64,000 bases of DNA from Lachnospiraceae bacterium MD308 (lineage in GTDB: Bacteria > Bacillota > Clostridia > Lachnospirales > Lachnospiraceae). The position numbers and the translations under genes are program-made. Shown here piece after piece: positions 5,472 to 53,688 of this stretch. Every line of letters begins with the position of its first letter. Positions within the stretch are counted from its first letter, which is position 1. The notes beneath the pieces are model-generated. The model made no database searches and was not told where the DNA came from. It saw only the letters and a list, made by a program, of their open reading frames with translations. The stretch covers positions 1,178,983 through 1,242,982 of the forward strand of contig KE159795.1 of assembly GCA_000403475.2 (NCBI GenBank). Direction: 5' to 3'.

Positions 5472-6237
5472 TCCCTCCCTCTTTTTTCGTTCCCAAATAT
5501 GCCTCTATAACTACCGGGTTATTCCTGATTTCTTTCGGTATTCCTTCTGCAATCTTACTTCCATGATCCAGCACGACAATATAATCCGACACATTCATAA
5601 CAACTTTCATATTATGTTCAATGAAGATGACCGTCTTCTTAAGTTCTGCATTGATCCAACGGATTAATTCCAAAAGCTCTGCGGATTCATTAATGTTCAT
5701 ACCTGCTGCCGGTTCATCCAATAATAGAAGTTTCGGATCGCTTACTAATGCTCTGGCTATTTCCAGCCGTCTCTGCTGGCCATATGGCAAAGCTGCTCCG
5801 TATTCTGCATATTTCCCATCAAGGCCTACGATCTTAAGCGCCTCCATACTTTTCTCTGTAATTTCTGCCTCTATTTTTTGAGAACGGCCAGGAATAAAAG
5901 ATTCTATGTCCCTTGCTTTAATCCGACTGTGCATACCCGTCATCACATTTTCCAGTACTGTCATTCTCTTGAACAAACGGATATTCTGAAAAGTCCTCGC
6001 AACTCCCAGTGCATGGATCTCGTAAGGCTTCATCGTATCAATCTTGACTCCGTTGAAAGTAATGGTTCCCGATGTACGCATATATGCCCCTGTAATAAGG
6101 TTAAACAAAGTCGTCTTGCCGGCTCCGTTAGGGCCGATAATACTTAATATCTTTCCTTCCGGCACACTGACAGAAACATCGTTCGTTGCAACTACTCCGC
6201 CAAAAGATTTGGTGACGTGATTAATCTCCAACAGCAT
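5458..6237 (-). CDS. livG: LivG-type ABC transporter ATPase
   Basis: 259 residues. Walker A GPNGAGKTT near residue 35, the variant signature LPYGQQRRLEIARAL, Walker B LLLDEPAAGMN and the switch histidine in IEHNMKVVMN are present, as in LivG proteins. It pairs with LivF and energises the LivH/LivM channel at the inner face of the membrane. It is 3 bp from livM and overlaps livF. Confidence 0.92.
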   Translation of the reverse strand: MLLEINHVTKSFGGVVATNDVSVSVPEGKILSIIGPNGAGKTTLFNLITGAYMRTSGTITFNGVKIDTMKPYEIHALGVARTFQNIRLFKRMTVLENVMTGMHSRIKARDIESFIPGRSQKIEAEITEKSMEALKIVGLDGKYAEYGAALPYGQQRRLEIARALVSDPKLLLLDEPAAGMNINESAELLELIRWINAELKKTVIFIEHNMKVVMNVSDYIVVLDHGSKIAEGIPKEIRNNPVVIEAYLGTKKEGGNADA

Positions 6238-44801: not shown

Positions 44802-44822
44802 GAACTTTTTTATTCCAGTTTG

Positions 44823-45764
44823 TCAGCGGATGTGTTCCGCACCTTCAAAATTGCTCTCTGCCACAATGTAATGCGGCCTGTGTTTTGTCTCTGTATAAAT
44901 TTTGGCAATGTACTGTCCCATAATTCCCAAACAAAACAAATGAATCCCTCCGATAAACAATATTACACAGATGAGGGATGCCCATCCTGCGACAGGATCT
45001 CCGAAAGCAATCCTCCTGATAACAATAAACAGCAGCATGAAAAATGATATTCCAGTCATGCCGATTCCAAACCATGATGCTATACTCAGCGGAATATGGG
45101 AAAAATTAATAATTCCGTCCAAGGCATATTGGACAAGCTTCCAAAAATTCCATTTCGACTGGCCGGCGGCGCGTTCAGTATTTTTGTATGGTATCCAACA
45201 GGTACGGAATCCTACCCATCCGAAAATTCCCTTTGTAAAGCGATTATATTCTCCAAGAGAAATAACAGCGTCCGTCATCTCACGCCGCATTAGCCGGAAA
45301 TCACGTGCTCCCTCTACAATATCCACATTAGATATTTTATTTATCAGTTTATAAAACTTGTGTGCAAACCAACTTCTGATCGGCGGTTCTCCTTCTCTGT
45401 CGGCCCGCCTTGTGGCAACACTGTCATAATCGCCTTCCTGCAGAATGCGCAGCATCTCCGGAAGAAGGGACGGCGGATCCTGCAAATCAACATCCATAAT
45501 AGCCGTATAGTCTCCGTGTGCGTTGCGCAGTCCGGCATACATGGCGGCCTCTTTTCCGAAATTTCTGGAAAATGACAGATAGCAGACATGGCTGTCCGTT
45601 TCTCCCAGTTCTTTTAAAATTTTAAGTGTATCATCCGAAGAACCGTCGTCTACAAACAGCAGTTCATATGGACAATTCATTTTTTCTAAAACAGCGACCG
45701 TCTCTCTATAAAATACCGGAAGTACGTCCTGCTCGTTAAAACATGGTACAATTAATGTTATCAT
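44823..45764 (-). CDS. Family 2 glycosyltransferase with C-terminal membrane segments (GtrB/DPM1-like)
   Basis: 313 residues from the ATG at 45762-45764, preceded by AGGACGG. GT-A fold with LIVPCFNEQDVLP, FVDDGSSDDT, the IMDVDLQDPP metal-binding motif and the ARDFRLMRR region, then two membrane segments near the C-terminus. It resembles GtrB/DPM1 enzymes that make undecaprenyl-phosphate-sugar at the cytoplasmic face. It lies 58 bp after the GtrII-type gene, so it probably supplies the lipid-linked sugar for it and shares its invertible promoter. Confidence 0.88.
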   Translation of the reverse strand: MITLIVPCFNEQDVLPVFYRETVAVLEKMNCPYELLFVDDGSSDDTLKILKELGETDSHVCYLSFSRNFGKEAAMYAGLRNAHGDYTAIMDVDLQDPPSLLPEMLRILQEGDYDSVATRRADREGEPPIRSWFAHKFYKLINKISNVDIVEGARDFRLMRREMTDAVISLGEYNRFTKGIFGWVGFRTCWIPYKNTERAAGQSKWNFWKLVQYALDGIINFSHIPLSIASWFGIGMTGISFFMLLFIVIRRIAFGDPVAGWASLICVILFIGGIHLFCLGIMGQYIAKIYTETKHRPHYIVAESNFEGAEHIR

Positions 45765-45822
45765 ATGCATCCGTCCTGTCTGTTCTCCGCAGGCGGCAAA
45801 GCACACCTGCGCGTATAATTGA

Positions 45823-47313
45823 CTATTTTAATTCCACCAGGTAGTTGTCCCCGGAGCCTTTTAAAGTGAAAAACATCGTATCCTTTATAACTGGCAGATT
45901 ACACGTCTTAAGATCCACGGATGAATCATGTCGGATATTTTTCAGACCATAATAATTATAGAATTTGTAACCTCCCCAATGCCACTCTTCTTTGAATGTA
46001 ACCGGAATGAGCCGACTCAATATACCATACCTTGACATTACGCCTGTCAAGGAAGGCGCGTAACCAATTGAACCGGCTATCTGCACATTTTTCACATTCC
46101 CCTGGGTGAGCTGATTCATTTCATTCAGCTCCTCAATCACAAGCATTGTCCTGTACTCTGTGTACTCCTTTTGAACCGAAAGGGCGTTTCCGTATGTGAA
46201 AGAGAATACGAAGAATGTCCAGCTTAACACTGCCATTACCAGCTTAACCGGCGCAAATCCCATATCCACCGCATAGACACTGATGACCGCAAGGAATACG
46301 CCAACTCCAAACATAGCCCTTGGCGCAAATAATGGTTTCGCAAGCATGGAATAGACACCAAAACTAATCAGGCTCATTGCTGCAAGCGAGCAACATGTAA
46401 CAAGAAGCGCCAATACCTTCTGCTGCTTGGAATGGTACACCATAGCAGCAACAAAAAAAATGCCGATCAAGAAAATCAGGATTTTCCAAAACATTGTAAA
46501 ATCCGAACGGACATAAGATAAGTATTGTTGCAAATTCCGCATAACAGACGGCAGAAACTGCTCTGAGGAAGGTACGGAGCTTGAAACATAGCCATCCACC
46601 GGCTTCATTATACGAATACGGAAGACAATCATTCCGTACACATATGCCAAAACGGCAGCCAGAAGAAATTTTCCAATTTCCTGCAGCTTTTGCGCCGCAT
46701 TCCATTTCTGAAGGCATAGAAAAATTGTCAGCACCGGAAAAATACCAGACGCGGCCTGGTAAGTCATGCAGACAGTCAAAATGCTGAATACAGAAACAAC
46801 AAAAAAGACAGGATACCGATATCTGCCTCTGAAAGCAAGAAATGGGACAACAGAAGCAAGAATCGACAGAGCCATATAGGGAGCATCATATTTATATGAC
46901 AGACATTCTAAGAAATACGGGGAAATTCCCAGAGGAATTACCGCTGCCAACGTCCAAAAAGAAACATTCGTGCGCCCTGTAATAATATAGATCATAATCA
47001 CCCCTGTTAAAGAAAGCAGCAGTATGGCAATAATTTGAGGCAACGGTGAAATTTCAGATAAAAAGCTGTCAGTGTGTATAAAAAAAGACAAAAAATCAGA
47101 CAAATGTCTGCTGAAATTAGACCATCCGGTGTATCCTGCGTTGGCTCTGCCCATATCGTCTATGTAGTTAACATTTGCACGTAAAAGAGCAAATATGGCG
47201 ACAAGATGAATTGCAAAAAGACATATAAACGGTTTTTTTATAGAGCGCAGCCAATCAAAAATCCCACAGCATAACGTAGAGACTGCTCTCTTTAGATGCA
47301 TTAATCTATTCAA
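45823..47313 (-). CDS. GtrII-type membrane glucosyltransferase
   Basis: 496 residues, 9-11 membrane segments. N-terminal exposed motif NYIDDMGRANAGYTGWSNFSRHLSD is typical of the GtrII family (phage-type O-antigen glucosylation and related surface modification). It starts with TTG at 47313, spaced about 11 bases from AAGGAG; an ATG four codons in is possible. It would transfer sugar from a lipid carrier onto an extracellular polymer. The invertible promoter segment lies 65 bp upstream. Confidence 0.82.
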   Translation of the reverse strand: MNRLMHLKRAVSTLCCGIFDWLRSIKKPFICLFAIHLVAIFALLRANVNYIDDMGRANAGYTGWSNFSRHLSDFLSFFIHTDSFLSEISPLPQIIAILLLSLTGVIMIYIITGRTNVSFWTLAAVIPLGISPYFLECLSYKYDAPYMALSILASVVPFLAFRGRYRYPVFFVVSVFSILTVCMTYQAASGIFPVLTIFLCLQKWNAAQKLQEIGKFLLAAVLAYVYGMIVFRIRIMKPVDGYVSSSVPSSEQFLPSVMRNLQQYLSYVRSDFTMFWKILIFLIGIFFVAAMVYHSKQQKVLALLVTCCSLAAMSLISFGVYSMLAKPLFAPRAMFGVGVFLAVISVYAVDMGFAPVKLVMAVLSWTFFVFSFTYGNALSVQKEYTEYRTMLVIEELNEMNQLTQGNVKNVQIAGSIGYAPSLTGVMSRYGILSRLIPVTFKEEWHWGGYKFYNYYGLKNIRHDSSVDLKTCNLPVIKDTMFFTLKGSGDNYLVELK

Positions 47314-47347
47314 AGAATTTCACACTCCTTCATTTTTGCTGCTTCAC

Positions 47348-47377
47348 AGATAACATTTTATTATGAATTGTTATCTA
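47348..47377. repeat. Left inverted repeat of the invertible promoter
   Basis: 30 bp, exact reverse complement of 47569-47598. Within it, 8-bp arms AGATAACA and TGTTATCT flank a 13-base centre, the shape of a tyrosine-recombinase core site. Confidence 0.95.
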
Positions 47378-47568
47378 AAAAAATTCTGGCAGCACATAAT
47401 ATTAAAAATAACGTCTGCTACCATTCTATTCACTTTTTTATAAATTTGCAACCTTTATCGAAACTTTGTGCATATTGCACAAAAAAATCAAGTGTCAATC
47501 TATTTTGAGAAAACTAATAGTTATTTTTTTCTATTCGTTGATTTCACCGATGTCAACTAGAAAGAACA
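47378..47568 (-). promoter_or_regulatory. Invertible promoter segment (ON orientation in this sequence)
   Basis: 191 bp, AT-rich, between perfect 30-bp inverted repeats. On the minus strand, toward the GtrII-type gene, it carries two sigma-A-like promoters: TTGCAA-17-TAGAAT (-35 at 47446-47451, -10 at 47423-47428) and TTGACA-17-TAGAAA (-35 at 47551-47556, -10 at 47528-47533). A further TTGACA is at 47493-47498. No comparable promoter is seen on the plus strand. A dyad (47465-47483) lies between the two promoters. In the inverted state they would point at the 3' end of the recombinase gene. Confidence 0.88.
47465..47483. promoter_or_regulatory. Operator-like dyad inside the switch
   Basis: TTTGTGCA-TAT-TGCACAAA: perfect 8-bp arms, 13 bp upstream of the proximal -35. 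Possible binding site for an activator or repressor. Confidence 0.55.
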
Positions 47569-47598
47569 TAGATAACAATTCATAATAAAATGTTATCT
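47569..47598. repeat. Right inverted repeat of the invertible promoter
   Basis: Exact reverse complement of 47348-47377, 20 bp beyond the 3' end of the recombinase gene. The repeated AGATAACA/TGTTATCT arms are the probable recombinase binding sites. Confidence 0.95.
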
Positions 47599-47618
47599 AC
47601 AATCCACTGTAATATATT

Positions 47619-48197
47619 TTATAGGTTTAAAGATTTAAATAAATCATCCCGGTCATCCTGGCAGATTGAAAGATATCGTTTTGTAATTTCAATACTGGAA
47701 TGGTTATAAATATTCATAATAAGTGCGGAAGGAGTTCCCATTTTCCAGGCATGGTATCCGAATGTTTTCCGGAGAGAGTGGCAGCTAATATTCCCCTCAA
47801 CATGAACGGCATCGGCAGCATTCTTTATAATATGATAAGCACGATTACGTGAAAGCGGAGCATGCCGGTTTTTATTACTGCTGAAAATATATTCGTCTTC
47901 TGTCTGAAGCGGCCGGTTCTTTTTCAGCAGCTTTAAAGCAGAAATACAATTCGTATTTAAAGCTATAATGACCTGTTTATTGGTCTTGCGCTCGATAATC
48001 CGGACATGGCTTTTATAAGCATGTGTCTGAGTATTGTATACATCTTCCCATTTTAAATGCAGCAAATCGCTGATGCGAAGAGCCGTATTGATGCCGGTTA
48101 CAAACAAGGCGTAATCCCGGTAATTTTTATCTTCCAGAAAATAAGATTTCATTTTTTCAATTTCTTTTCTGCTTCTAATCGGTGTTGTCTGCATCAT
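47619..48197 (-). CDS. Small tyrosine recombinase (DNA invertase of the promoter switch)
   Basis: 192 residues, catalytic-domain-only size like FimB/FimE. Active-site residues are visible: Arg in TALRISDLLHLKW, Lys in the beta-hairpin (ERKTNKQV), HSLRKTFGYHAW, and NHSSIEITKRYLS with the nucleophilic Tyr. No arm-binding N-terminal domain or other phage genes. The gene ends 21 bp from the right inverted repeat and is transcribed toward the switch. It is the probable recombinase that flips 47378-47568; a Fim/RecV-type phase-variation role is inferred from this layout. Confidence 0.9.
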   Translation of the reverse strand: MMQTTPIRSRKEIEKMKSYFLEDKNYRDYALFVTGINTALRISDLLHLKWEDVYNTQTHAYKSHVRIIERKTNKQVIIALNTNCISALKLLKKNRPLQTEDEYIFSSNKNRHAPLSRNRAYHIIKNAADAVHVEGNISCHSLRKTFGYHAWKMGTPSALIMNIYNHSSIEITKRYLSICQDDRDDLFKSLNL

Positions 48198-48221
48198 TTA
48201 CCTCCGTTTTCCATATTAAAA

Positions 48222-48286
48222 TAGCACCTATTCTTTGGCACAATAAGATTACCACATCAAATAAACCAAATACAGAAGAGGTGCTA
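48222..48286 (-). other. Hairpin leader upstream of the recombinase gene
   Basis: On the minus strand, TAGCACCTCTTCT pairs with AGAATAGGTGCTA with one mismatch (outer arms 48222-48229 and 48279-48286), followed by TTTTAATATGG, shortly before the recombinase start. It resembles an attenuator-like leader. Confidence 0.45.
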
Positions 48287-48406
48287 CTCATATGATAAAC
48301 TAAATGAATACAAATGAACATACCCTAATTCAAAAATATTTTATAATTGATTTTACAGATATAAAAAAGCTATAATATACATAACAAAGGTAAGGGGGGA
48401 CCAATC

Positions 48407-48502
48407 TTGGACAAATCACGGGGGACTATTGAAATTCATCTGGAAGAATTGCTTAAGGAAGCAGGACTAAGCAAAAATAAGTTCTGCCAGAGAGCGGGCT
48501 AA
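48407..48502 (+). pseudogene. Truncated XRE-type helix-turn-helix gene
   Basis: A TTG-started frame of 31 codons after a good GGGGGG site and a TTGATT-18-TATAAT promoter. It encodes the first part of a Cro/C1-type HTH (IEIHLEELLKEAGLSKNKFC) and stops early, at QRAG, where family members continue for about 35 more residues. Most likely a nonsense or deletion remnant. Confidence 0.55.
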
Positions 48503-48542
48503 AAAGAACAACGCCCCATAATAATCAAAAAATGTACTAATA

Positions 48543-48989
48543 TTACTTCACTAATTGTAAATACAGTTCTTCTTCAATACAACAATATTCTTCATGAGTG
48601 ATCGTATAGCACACCACCTCCCCGTCTTTTATAAATGCCGGGTCTTCGAGTGTTATCCCCAGATTCTCGTCCGTTTGTTCAAAATCAAATATATTTTCTT
48701 TCTTCCAAAAAAAGTCATATAAAAAATAATCTTTTTTCAAAACAATTAAATGATTTACCTCATCAAATCCGCCTGTAATCGGTCTGTCAATCGCAGTGTA
48801 AATAACATTTTCACTTAAAAAGGACCAAATACTATTATTAAACTCTTCAATATTATCCAAAAAAGGGCTTACAGTAAAACATACTTTGTCCGTATGTTTC
48901 ATTACCAACTTGATAAATTCCTGGTATTCTTTGCGGTTTTTCATTTCTAAATACAAATATTTAGTATTTTTTATATTTACATTTTTCAT
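48543..48989 (-). CDS. Hypothetical protein
   Basis: 148 residues, acidic, soluble, aromatic-rich (for example KKDYFLYDFFWKKENIFDFE), no signal or membrane segment. Not recognised. It lies 6 bp after the cupin regulator gene and is probably co-transcribed with it. Codon use and AT content match the lower-GC neighbours. Confidence 0.6.
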   Translation of the reverse strand: MKNVNIKNTKYLYLEMKNRKEYQEFIKLVMKHTDKVCFTVSPFLDNIEEFNNSIWSFLSENVIYTAIDRPITGGFDEVNHLIVLKKDYFLYDFFWKKENIFDFEQTDENLGITLEDPAFIKDGEVVCYTITHEEYCCIEEELYLQLVK

Positions 48990-50394: not shown

Positions 50395-51324
50395 TTATAT
50401 ATTTTCTCCTGTTACATATGCTTTCATACCGTGTTGTTCGAATATGGTTTTTATCCATTCAATCCGTTCATGGTCAGGCGGAACAAACCGGTACTCTCTC
50501 TCCCCCAGCCCTCTTCTCTTGGCATTGCCGAGATCATGATATGGTATCAGAGTTACTTCCGATAATCCGTATTGTTTGTAGAACACCGCCGTCTTCATGA
50601 TTATCTCATCCGTATCATTTACTCCTGAAACCAGCGGCATCCTCATCTGTATCTTGCTGCGTATATCCGGAATAGCCGCCAGCCTTATCAGGTTATCCAA
50701 TATAAGTGCATTGCTCTTTCCGGTATACTCCATGTGAATATCGTTATCGATGGATTTCATATCATATAAAATCATCTGCGCGTCATCCGCCAGCGTAAAA
50801 AGTGTCTCGTAATCGCCGTATCCGCTTGTGTCAATCACATAAGGGATTTCATGTCTTTTACATTCCATGGAGATGCGGACTGCGAATTCCGGGCAAGACA
50901 GTATCTCGCCGCCGCTTAAGGTCACTCCGCCTCCTGATTTATCGTAAAATTCTTTATCCTGCAAAATCACCCGCATCACTTCTTCTATGGTCATAGGTTC
51001 AGCGGACATCCTAAGTGCTTTTGAATAACAATAATCCACGCAGAGCTTACATAAGTTACATCGCTCCCTGTCAATGACTATCTTCCCACCATCCCTGACG
51101 ATGACATGCCGCGGACATTTTTCTGCACATGCCCCGCACCCGATGCATCTATTGGCGCTGTAGATAATCTGATTCCGGCTGTCTGTCAGTTCCGGATTAT
51201 GGCACCACCTGCACCTGAGCGGGCATCCCTTTACAAATATACTTGTGCGGATGCCCGGCCCGTCAGATGTTGAAAATTTCTGGATGCCCCCGATCTCATA
51301 AATCCTGTCCATCATTTCCCCCAT
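50395..51324 (-). CDS. Glycyl-radical-enzyme activating protein (radical SAM)
   Basis: 309 residues. Radical SAM cysteines C34, C38 and C41 (GCPLRCRWC), followed by two ferredoxin-like clusters ([23 protein letters not shown]), typical for activases of dehydratase/lyase-type glycyl-radical enzymes. It would abstract H from Gly762 of the neighbouring enzyme, using SAM. It starts 3 bp after the enzyme gene; an ATG four codons in (51312) has better SD spacing. Confidence 0.92.
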
Positions 51325-51327
51325 GTC

Positions 51328-53688
51328 TTACGCCGTGTGCGCGGTTCTTGCAATGATATTGTCCTGCACTGTTCGATCAAGGTCTGTAAAATATGCAAGA
51401 TAACCTGCCACCCGCACAACCAGTCCGCGATATTTCTCTGGTTCCTTCTGCGCTGCCCGAAGCGTCGCATCATCTACCACATTAATCTGGATGTGTTCCC
51501 CGTATTGGTCAAAATAAGTCTTAATGACATCCTCAATCACTTTCGTTCCGCGCTCCCCCTCCAGTCCGTTAGAGTCAAACCGAAGATTAAACAGCGTACC
51601 GTCATACGTCTTAACCTGTTCACAGGCTCCCACCGATTTTACTGTTGCCGTCGGCCCTGAGATATCTCTTCCGCAGGCGGGGCAGGAATTGTCACTCAAT
51701 GGCTCCCCGGCGTGCCTTCCGTCCGGAGTCGCATTGCAAAATTCTCCGAATAGCAGATTGATGGTCTGGGATAAGTTGCAGACACAATACTGCCCTCCGC
51801 GGGAATCTTTAAACTGCTGTACATAATCGCTGCTGCCGACAATAATATCATGGCAGACTTTATCAACAGATTCGATATCATTTCCGAATTTCGGAGGAAT
51901 ATTGATCAAGTACTGCCGCAGTCTTTCATCTTCCTTAAAGTCCTTATCGCAGGCGTCGATAAGCTCCTGCATCGTAAGATGCCTGTCCTTGAATACCGCG
52001 TAGTCAATCGCCTCCACTGCATCTGCAAGGCTGGCAGGGCAGCTTAAAAATGCTCCGGTATATAAATGTTCTGCCCCTCCCTCCTGTACAGAAAGGCCCT
52101 TCTCGATACTCCCATTGAGAATCAAAGATGAAAAGATGACCGGCATCTGTACCGCATGAACCGGCACTACCACATTATATCCGCGAATCAGAAGATCCCA
52201 TTGATGGCGCAGTTGTATCATAACAGCCCCAAAAAGCTCCTCTTTATTTTTAAAATCATTTGGCTCGCCCGTCTCAACCCCTGCTTTTTCGCCGGACACA
52301 GGGTCAATTCCGTTATGGAGGGCTAATTCCAAGGCTTTCATACAGTTGATATATCCCGCAATCGGGCTTGCGTCAGAGCCGCCCCCGCCGGGATGCGGCT
52401 CCACGCATCCAACTACCGTCCAGTCTCGCGCCTCTTCTAAAGTTCCGCCTTTATCCAGACAGATTGGGATACAGGCTTTATCGTTAAAAAACGCCGGATT
52501 TCCTATGCCTCTTTGAATCATTTTAACCGCCTTGTCAAACAGCGGACGCGGAGTATCGTCATGTATCCTAAGCCCGATTGCAGGCTGCGCCAACTTCACC
52601 TCGTTTTGAGCCTCCAGGCAAAGATAGGTCAAATCGTTTGTCGCGTCATTGCCTTGCCGGTCGATTCCACCTACGATCATAATCTGCCACAGCGGATAGC
52701 CCGCGAACTTTTTCGCATCCGCATCTGTCCGGACAATTTTCAATTCACTGGTCTTAATATACAGACACTCTATAAGCTCTAATGCCTCCTCCGGAGTAAT
52801 ATTGCCGGATTCCAAATCTGCTTTATAATACGGATACATATATTGATCAAACCGCCCGAATCCGCATCCCGCCGCATTTGCCTCTACATGGACAAGCTGC
52901 TGTAAAAACCAGACAAACTGAATCGCCTGATAAAAGTTTTGGGGAGCGTGTTCCGGGATGACTTTCATATTTTCCACGATTGTTAAAAGCTCTTTCCTTC
53001 TTCTTTCGTCCGCTTCATTTTCGGCCATCTCTTCAGCTAATTTTCCAAAACGGTTGGCATAGCGTATGATTGCTTCGAGGACAATTATACAGGCGTGCCA
53101 ATAATTTACCTTTTCGCGCTCCTCTTTATTATCCGGCACTGTCTTTCGAATCTGTTCCCGGCAGCGGTCAATATACCCTGAAAACCCTTCCCTCATAAGG
53201 CGCGCATGATCCGGCACAACACCGCTGGACGGCTGCGTCCGATTCCCAAGAACTATCATCCCCAGACGCCTTGCCTGCTGCACATCCGGAAATATCACTT
53301 GTTCAAGATTGACCTCTGTACTTCTGCCAAACCACCAGGGAAGCTCTCTTTTAAATATCTCCTTATCTTCCGGCTCCACGACCAGCGGATCATGGCTTCT
53401 CGTCTCAATGGTATCAAGCGCGCCATGCAGCCATTCTGCCGACATGTACTCCGGATAGAAAGACACCCCGTGGCGTTTGTCCGCCTGGCTCCCGATAATC
53501 AGTTCTTCTGGAAATATCCGAAGCGTCATATTCTCCAACACATACGCGAACACATGCGCCCGAAAAACACATGGAACCTCTCCGGAATACTTCTCGTAAG
53601 CCTCTCTTGCAAGAACCATCCGCTCCGCACAGACCCTTGGCTTTGTTTCAAACATGGCTTTTCGTAAAATATCAATTCTCTCTCTCAT
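51328..53688 (-). CDS. Glycyl-radical enzyme of the dehydratase/lyase group, substrate unknown
   Basis: 786 residues, full length for the PFL-like superfamily. The thiyl-radical site is Cys428 in VVGCVEPHPGGGG with the general-base Glu430, and the radical site is Gly762 in RVAGYLAYF. GCVEP occurs in choline, glycerol, hydroxyproline and isethionate-type enzymes, not in pyruvate formate-lyase. The segment after it (HPGGGGSDASPIAGYINCMKAL) does not let me name a subgroup. Anaerobic, oxygen-sensitive. It is encoded with its activase, an SDR and an NhaC-family transporter. Confidence 0.92.
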   Translation of the reverse strand: MRERIDILRKAMFETKPRVCAERMVLAREAYEKYSGEVPCVFRAHVFAYVLENMTLRIFPEELIIGSQADKRHGVSFYPEYMSAEWLHGALDTIETRSHDPLVVEPEDKEIFKRELPWWFGRSTEVNLEQVIFPDVQQARRLGMIVLGNRTQPSSGVVPDHARLMREGFSGYIDRCREQIRKTVPDNKEEREKVNYWHACIIVLEAIIRYANRFGKLAEEMAENEADERRRKELLTIVENMKVIPEHAPQNFYQAIQFVWFLQQLVHVEANAAGCGFGRFDQYMYPYYKADLESGNITPEEALELIECLYIKTSELKIVRTDADAKKFAGYPLWQIMIVGGIDRQGNDATNDLTYLCLEAQNEVKLAQPAIGLRIHDDTPRPLFDKAVKMIQRGIGNPAFFNDKACIPICLDKGGTLEEARDWTVVGCVEPHPGGGGSDASPIAGYINCMKALELALHNGIDPVSGEKAGVETGEPNDFKNKEELFGAVMIQLRHQWDLLIRGYNVVVPVHAVQMPVIFSSLILNGSIEKGLSVQEGGAEHLYTGAFLSCPASLADAVEAIDYAVFKDRHLTMQELIDACDKDFKEDERLRQYLINIPPKFGNDIESVDKVCHDIIVGSSDYVQQFKDSRGGQYCVCNLSQTINLLFGEFCNATPDGRHAGEPLSDNSCPACGRDISGPTATVKSVGACEQVKTYDGTLFNLRFDSNGLEGERGTKVIEDVIKTYFDQYGEHIQINVVDDATLRAAQKEPEKYRGLVVRVAGYLAYFTDLDRTVQDNIIARTAHTA

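Follow-up and report, generated by a model that had tools for sequence, protein, structure and literature searches.

A predicted invertible promoter at a gtrII locus of Lachnospiraceae bacterium MD308 and its relatives in the Eubacterium plexicaudatum group

Does the assembled genome of Lachnospiraceae bacterium MD308 show a surface sugar modification that is simply expressed, or one of two states of a switch? The question is raised by a pair of inverted repeats in the 64,000-nucleotide stretch of DNA analyzed here (the window), which lie between a small tyrosine recombinase gene and two glycosyltransferase genes (Table 1). Our main reading, to which we give a probability of roughly 0.87, is that this locus is an invertible promoter, or inverton, flipped by the adjoining 192-aa tyrosine recombinase and controlling gtrII and a GT2 gene. 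If this is how the locus works, the recombinase would act on two inverted AGATAACA-N13-TGTTATCT sites and flip the 191 bp between them. In the assembled orientation, the promoter TTGCAA-N17-TAGAAT would transcribe gtrII and the GT2 gene (ON), and in the inverted orientation it would be directed into the recombinase gene at its 3' end, leaving gtrII and the GT2 gene deprived of this promoter (OFF). On this model the GT2 protein would charge a lipid carrier with a sugar that GtrII would then pass to a surface glycan or glycoprotein, so ON/OFF switching of the two would leave the population mixed for one surface sugar.

Table 1. Features of the predicted switch and its surroundings, in window coordinates.
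Feature	Coordinates	Strand	Description
GT2 glycosyltransferase, target gene 2	44823-45806	-	327 aa as called; PF00535; PgfS-/bactoprenol-transferase-like
GtrII-type membrane glycosyltransferase, target gene 1	45823-47313	-	496 aa, TTG start; PF14264 Glucos_trans_II
Left inverted repeat	47348-47377	+	Recombination site (predicted); 29-bp core AGATAACA-N13-TGTTATCT at 47348-47376
Segment between repeats	47378-47568	none	191 bp; predicted invertible; 27.7% G+C
Promoter TTGCAA-N17-TAGAAT	47423-47451	-	Exact match; aimed at gtrII; conserved in relatives
Weaker promoter-like site TTGACA-N17-TAGAAA	47528-47556	-	Same direction as TTGCAA-N17-TAGAAT; without conservation support
Right inverted repeat	47569-47598	-	Recombination site (predicted); core at 47570-47598
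Tyrosine recombinase	47619-48197	-	192 aa; presumed invertase of the 191-bp segment; Phage_integrase family, 89.5 bits

The initial annotation had described a perfect 30-bp inverted repeat pair around 191 bp, with arms on either side of a 13-bp centre, beside a FimB-size tyrosine recombinase and a GtrII-type transferase and GT2 pair as targets, and each of these structural elements was borne out. The left and right repeats are complementary at 30/30 positions, and inspection of the sequence found the arms and centre as described; each repeat is palindromic in itself, with an asymmetric centre. This pair is the only perfect inverted repeat of at least 16 bp with a spacer of 30 to 1,500 bp in the window, and a search for the repeat allowing up to 3 mismatches returned 2 matches, compared with 0 in 100 shuffles. 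Throughout the 4.46-Mb genome, both the pattern AGATAACA-N11..15-TGTTATCT and the shorter site form ATAACA-N12..13-TGTTAT are restricted to these two repeats.

The recombinase belongs to the Phage_integrase family, and R41, K74, H140, R143, H166, and Y175, whose catalytic roles we assume from the tyrosine-recombinase family, are invariant in all 53 recombinases that could be aligned (of 56 proteins, 3 were left out of the alignment and tree as broken or cut). The locus has the parts expected of an inverton: a promoter in front of a target gene and between inverted repeats, and a neighboring site-specific recombinase whose active-site residues are intact. When genome contigs were scanned with the window recombinase, 15 related loci were found, and its named relatives are mostly Lachnospiraceae and Eubacterium-type Clostridia. 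Matches at E <= 1e-25 occur in 36 of 397 same-family genomes, with the window genome among the 36; across the order (392 genomes), a match at E <= 1e-70 is found in the window's own genome alone. Phylogenetically, the window recombinase joins six recombinases of the E. plexicaudatum group with support of 100/96; one recombinase 72-75% identical to it is found in the fetched locus of each of these six genomes, and the next relative stands at 58%. Beside the recombinase gene lies a 148-aa protein (48543-48989, minus strand) with no Pfam, NCBIfam, or PHROG match, and upstream of the recombinase gene (48407-48502, plus strand) a stop-interrupted 31-codon frame resembles the start of an Xre-type regulator, the kind of protein encoded by the first gene behind the switches of relatives.

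Both targets match glycosyltransferase families. GtrII scores 162.9 bits against Pfam Glucos_trans_II (cut-off 30) and 233.4 bits against the PHROG GtrC-like O-antigen conversion family, and the GT2 protein scores 109.2 bits against PF00535, with scores below cut-off for the PgfS protein-glycosylation NCBIfam model (326.5 bits, cut-off 500) and PRK10714 (167.7 bits, cut-off 529). A GtrII/GtrC-type membrane transferase with an adjoining GtrB-like GT2 gene is what a gtr glucosylation operon would contain, and no candidate ORF for a GtrA-like third gene was seen between the two targets and the flanking ABC transporter genes. Six further genomes among the 397 contain GtrII homologs, and none of these has an inverted repeat comparable to the window's within 1.5 kb (one locus is shorter than this); a single short hairpin was found near the homolog in one (L101). 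A GT2 homolog adjoins GtrII in another (L097), and in part in a third (L102).

Two promoters aimed at gtrII and the GT2 gene had been proposed, and both sites are present on the minus strand, with TTGCAA-N17-TAGAAT the strongest promoter-like site in the spacer. Consensus scans alone are at chance level: the interval 47200-48600 contains 7 promoter-like sites where 6.7 are expected, and the best spacer score is reached in 8.2% of shuffles of this AT-rich stretch. TTGCAA-N17-TAGAAT is nevertheless credible because it is conserved in homologous spacers of relatives, and since it aims at gtrII and the GT2 gene, the assembly shows the ON state; TTGACA-N17-TAGAAA lies outside the homologous stretch, and this half of the proposal is left unsupported. 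The homology is to spacers of the E. plexicaudatum group, at the promoter end and with the same promoter direction. The window spacer matches 14 of 66 relative spacers at E <= 1e-3, every time on the plus strand, and the best match (L150) extends over 102 bp at 73.5% identity (E 3.7e-13). In a promoter-anchored alignment with the spacer of an ON locus (L145), 42 of 68 bases outside the hexamers are identical, a number reached in 0 of 2,000 shuffles. The window promoter is therefore a homolog of promoters that, as set out below, are found in both orientations between sites of the same type in the genomes that encode the closest recombinases. A near-palindrome, TTTGTGCA-TAT-TGCACAAA (47465-47483), immediately precedes the -35 box and may be an operator.

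These closest relatives are six genomes (G400-G405, named loci L008-L013), in which the pattern ATAACA-N12/13-TGTTAT occurs 8, 17, 24, 20, 14, and 22 times, compared with 1, 3, 6, 0, 4, and 1 times for a control pattern. We fetched 78 regions (L143-L220) that cover 101 of the 105 sites, the other 4 (3 in G401 and 1 in G405) being left out with seemingly non-canonical centres. A search for inverted repeats in related genomes, as the initial annotation had suggested, yields an inverted partner site in 68 of the 78 regions. Spacers are 240-299 bp in 66 of the 68 pairs and 642 and 913 bp in the other two. The remaining 10 regions have no partner under the rule used; in 7 of them the site lies within 30 bp of a contig end, and L152 has two sites that pair only with a one-base length difference. 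The first 55 regions contain 52 pairs, and in 45 of these the partners have identical central 9 bp, with agreement at 8 of 9 positions in the other 7, whereas comparisons between pairs gave full agreement in 26 of 1,326. Centers that are alike within a pair and differ between pairs are the pattern that site-specific inversion predicts.

A small Xre-type regulator lies on one side of the pair in 65 of the 68 paired regions, and we used this marker gene to define the target side, which leaves 3 paired regions without an assignment. Within the fetched stretch on the target side, searches with queries from these loci found a glycosyltransferase homolog in 51 of 65 regions (16/16 in G403, 13/14 in G402, 11/11 in G401, 5/6 in G400, 3/7 in G404, and 3/11 in G405), an ABC-2 type export permease homolog in 15, a homolog of a 477-aa protein in 11, and none of these in 2. 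Pfam searches with eight proteins from these regions returned HTH_3, Glycos_transf_1, Glycos_transf_2, and ABC2_membrane, and no Pfam match for the 477-aa protein. From their gene content, the target loci look like capsule- or exopolysaccharide-type operons, and these six genomes present many site pairs at such operons, as expected of multi-locus capsule inversion, where the window genome has one pair only. Because the site is shared, a single recombinase may act in trans on every site of a genome, and contributions from other recombinases there are possible.

If these segments invert, both orientations should be represented among homologous spacers, and they are. Once all regions are drawn with the target on the right, 48 spacers make up a single homologous family whose 436 signed comparisons contain 0 contradictions. 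Of these spacers, 44 lie one way, with TTGCAA-N17-TAGAAT (0-2 mismatches) directed away from the target, and 4 lie the other way, with the promoter directed at it. Over all 68 pairs of the six genomes, the promoter points away (OFF) in 58 and toward the target (ON) in 6, with 1 unclear and the 3 pairs lacking the marker gene. The ON loci number 0, 2, 1, 1, 1, and 1 in G400 to G405; the weakest of the six assignments are L169, which is near a contig end and has the marker gene on either flank, and L147, with the 913-bp spacer. We considered and dropped the idea that each genome holds exactly one ON locus, given that random spreading places an ON locus in at least 5 genomes in 23% of trials. The expectation that the opposite orientation would be seen elsewhere was thus realized in homologous spacers of relatives and not at the window locus itself, for which the collections searched contain no second record, so that one orientation is known; viral contigs scanned with the 25-bp site likewise gave no match.

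Assembly breaks point in the same direction. Of 104 sites counted (one G405 site with a seemingly non-canonical centre was left out), 7 are no more than 30 bp from a contig end, where 0.21 are expected and 0 of 300,000 simulations reach 7; mixed orientations in the sequenced DNA would produce such breaks. In G405, one contig starts and another ends exactly at sites of identical centre, so the assembly broke at both sites of what is seemingly one locus. On contig 47 of G402, the same spacer occurs twice (L168/L169), at the contig end and with near-identical flanks of 320-340 bp on both sides, which looks like an assembly of both orientations. By our reading of the sequence, the Xre regulator of the ON locus L145 (3388-3530) loses its frame in a run of A, through either an assembly error or a second, slippage-type switch.

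Judged from these relatives, inversion at the window locus is very likely, and the interpretation offered in the initial annotation is supported: all structural parts are present, and relatives carry the same site type and the promoter in both orientations at polysaccharide-type operons. We infer that inversion takes place in this species through the window recombinase, with ON/OFF expression of gtrII and the GT2 gene and a consequent change in surface sugar chemistry. The foremost alternative is that the segment is locked in this species, a remnant switch with its promoter fixed toward gtrII. This would account for the single known orientation and for one site pair where relatives have many, but unused sites would drift, whereas these repeats are still identical at 30/30 positions, and the recombinase reading frame is open with its active-site residues conserved; we regard a locked remnant as improbable.

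The repeats could instead serve as the attachment sites at which a mobile element, or the stretch that carries them, integrates, and the recombinase would then be an integrase and not an inverter of promoters. Among PHROG families, its best match is indeed a phage integrase family (184.8 bits), and the locus lies on DNA not found in five congeners. All five retain DNA homologous to 41.75-44.81 kb, with homology ending at 44,811-44,814 and resuming at 60.5-62.0 kb in four, the fifth fetched stretch ending before that point; the switch, both targets, and the recombinase thus lie on about 16 kb (44,815 to about 60,500) seemingly absent from the congeners, none of which has the recombinase (E <= 1e-30) or gtrII (E <= 1e-3). 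Repeats kept in a relative that lacks the recombinase, which had been named as evidence that would count against a switch, are therefore not what these congeners present, since homology stops before the locus and recombinase and gtrII are missing together. The stretch is not bounded by the repeats, however, with congener homology ending near 44,814 and resuming at about 60.5 kb; relatives place the same sites around promoters; and sites that are inverted and 191 bp apart would give inversion and not excision, all of which makes the attachment-site explanation very improbable. From their translations, other genes on this stretch encode a glycyl-radical-type enzyme (51328-53688) with an activase-like gene (50395-51324), a transporter, and a two-component system. 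That the repeats are regulator operators or RNA hairpins in an incidentally inverted arrangement is the least credible reading, since their palindromic form, common in operators, is joined to an asymmetric centre whose sequence matches only between partners. Such a match is required of a crossover region but not of an operator, and the spacers of relatives occur in both orientations.

An invertible promoter flipped by the adjoining recombinase might have one further property, which is an addition to this reading rather than an alternative and which we consider doubtful. In the OFF orientation, antisense RNA over the recombinase gene could slow the return to ON and make the switch self-limiting. 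Between the end of the right site and the stop codon of the recombinase lie 20 bp, and with all genes running the same way, inversion would turn the promoter toward the recombinase gene. The argument is one of position, and the layout is not general, as the recombinase gene in the six closest relatives adjoins no such pair except for a partial 15-bp one in L012.

The wider family departs from the window layout in other ways, and these differences count against the main reading. Among 55 related loci, oriented by recombinase direction, an inverted palindromic site pair encloses the recombinase gene itself in 26 (20 found by a strict scan and six, L015, L016, L056, L058, L066, and L076, by an imperfect repeat search), and GtrII, the target in the window, is never the target in the 78 E. 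plexicaudatum-group regions and has no homolog there or beside the 55 recombinases. The usual site in these more distant loci is ATGYAACA-N12/13-TGTTRCAT, and the GAM79 site and the window site have a central TTTTATTATG in common. A motif search found a csrA-like or flagellin gene near the recombinase in 26 of the 55 loci (L015-L019, L021, L057-L085), and the one such locus run on Pfam (L019) returned CsrA and Flagellin_N/C. In loci of this type the recombinase often lies within its own inverted site pair, and sister recombinases between inverted sites beside csrA-flagellin operons suggest that flagellin, too, would be switched by this invertase family. Of 41 recombinase genes, 9 are no more than 500 bp from a contig end, compared with 1.87 expected (simulated p 2e-5), which fits mixed orientation breaking the assemblies.

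Several further observations concern these loci. In many csrA/flagellin loci, a sigma-D-like motif of the form TAAA-N15-GCCGATAT (10/12 positions or more, counted without a shuffle control) was found near the recombinase. We dropped the idea that recombinases pointing toward and away from csrA represent two inversion states: one set has the motif on one side of the recombinase and the other set has it on the other, so direction relative to csrA is no evidence of inversion. Judging by translations only, family recombinases in L056, L058, and L063 lie beside cytidylyltransferase-, sugar-transferase-, and glycosyltransferase-like genes. In L022 (5788-5813 / 5949-5974) and L051/L084, an inverted site pair precedes the recombinase gene, whose own promoter it may switch.

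The best-documented invertible promoters of surface polysaccharide loci are those of Bacteroidales. In Bacteroides fragilis, the serine recombinase Mpi is one invertase that acts on many capsular polysaccharide promoters with a shared site, and the E. plexicaudatum group seems to have a comparable arrangement of one invertase and many invertible promoters before surface polysaccharide operons. Unlike Mpi, the window recombinase is of the small tyrosine type with unrelated sites, and its genome has one site pair. FimB/FimE and fimS of Escherichia coli, in which a tyrosine recombinase of about 200 aa lies beside a small invertible promoter, resemble the window locus in recombinase size and in this arrangement, but the target and sites differ, and the window recombinase is far below the NCBIfam FimB/FimE cut-offs (PRK09870, 36.8 versus 221 bits; PRK09871, 44.4 versus 222 bits). 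A further parallel is offered by the gtr operons of Salmonella, whose phase variation proceeds through OxyR/Dam control and DNA methylation. They share with the window locus an ON/OFF control of a lipid-linked sugar transferase and a Gtr-type membrane glucosyltransferase, and differ in that DNA methylation there corresponds to predicted DNA inversion here; in the window, a third, GtrA-like gene was not seen between the targets and the ABC transporter genes.

Within Clostridia, the RecV-type inversions of Clostridioides difficile are likewise described as recombinase-driven and switch surface or signaling genes, with other targets. The consulted portion of one review mentions gtr phase variation (PMC11868660), and the window recombinase and site family find no mention in that portion or in the consulted portion of a Bacteroidales inversion study (PMC10939037). 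In the hCom2 gut community (PMC11892184), inverton group 139 comprises 33 invertons, 32 of them from Clostridia, linked to a nearby tyrosine-recombinase invertase of group 35; the example from Clostridium sp. D5, for which orientation shifts were measured, has 26-bp repeats with 205 bp between them by coordinates. This group may belong to the same family as the window locus. A literature search, with thin coverage of subscription journals, found nothing on E. plexicaudatum inversions or flagellin inversion in Lachnospiraceae.

The window locus is thus a well-formed invertible promoter of a known kind, short of direct proof, and the family of site, promoter, and recombinase is the more interesting result. 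Kinship of site, spacer, and recombinase makes the window locus a probable one-pair member of a clostridial invertase system working like Bacteroides capsule switching. With moderate confidence, we favor a broader model of a clostridial system of surface variation, of which the window switch would be a branch with one locus. Genomes of the E. plexicaudatum group would each rely on one small tyrosine invertase that works in trans on 6-16 or more pairs and chooses the transcribed polysaccharide-type operon, with nearly all OFF at a time; this would be an independent counterpart of Mpi-controlled capsule switching, and flagellin would also be switched by the family.

A clostridial family of recombinase, site, and promoter appears to serve in gut Clostridia the same role as the Bacteroidales systems, at scales that differ between one sugar-modification operon in the window genome and many polysaccharide-type operons per genome in its relatives. 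The analysis supplies exact sites that can be tested, including those at L143-L154 of the gut commensal Eubacterium plexicaudatum ASF492, and with them a route to asking how a Gram-positive gut commensal holds nearly all of its surface polysaccharide operons OFF.
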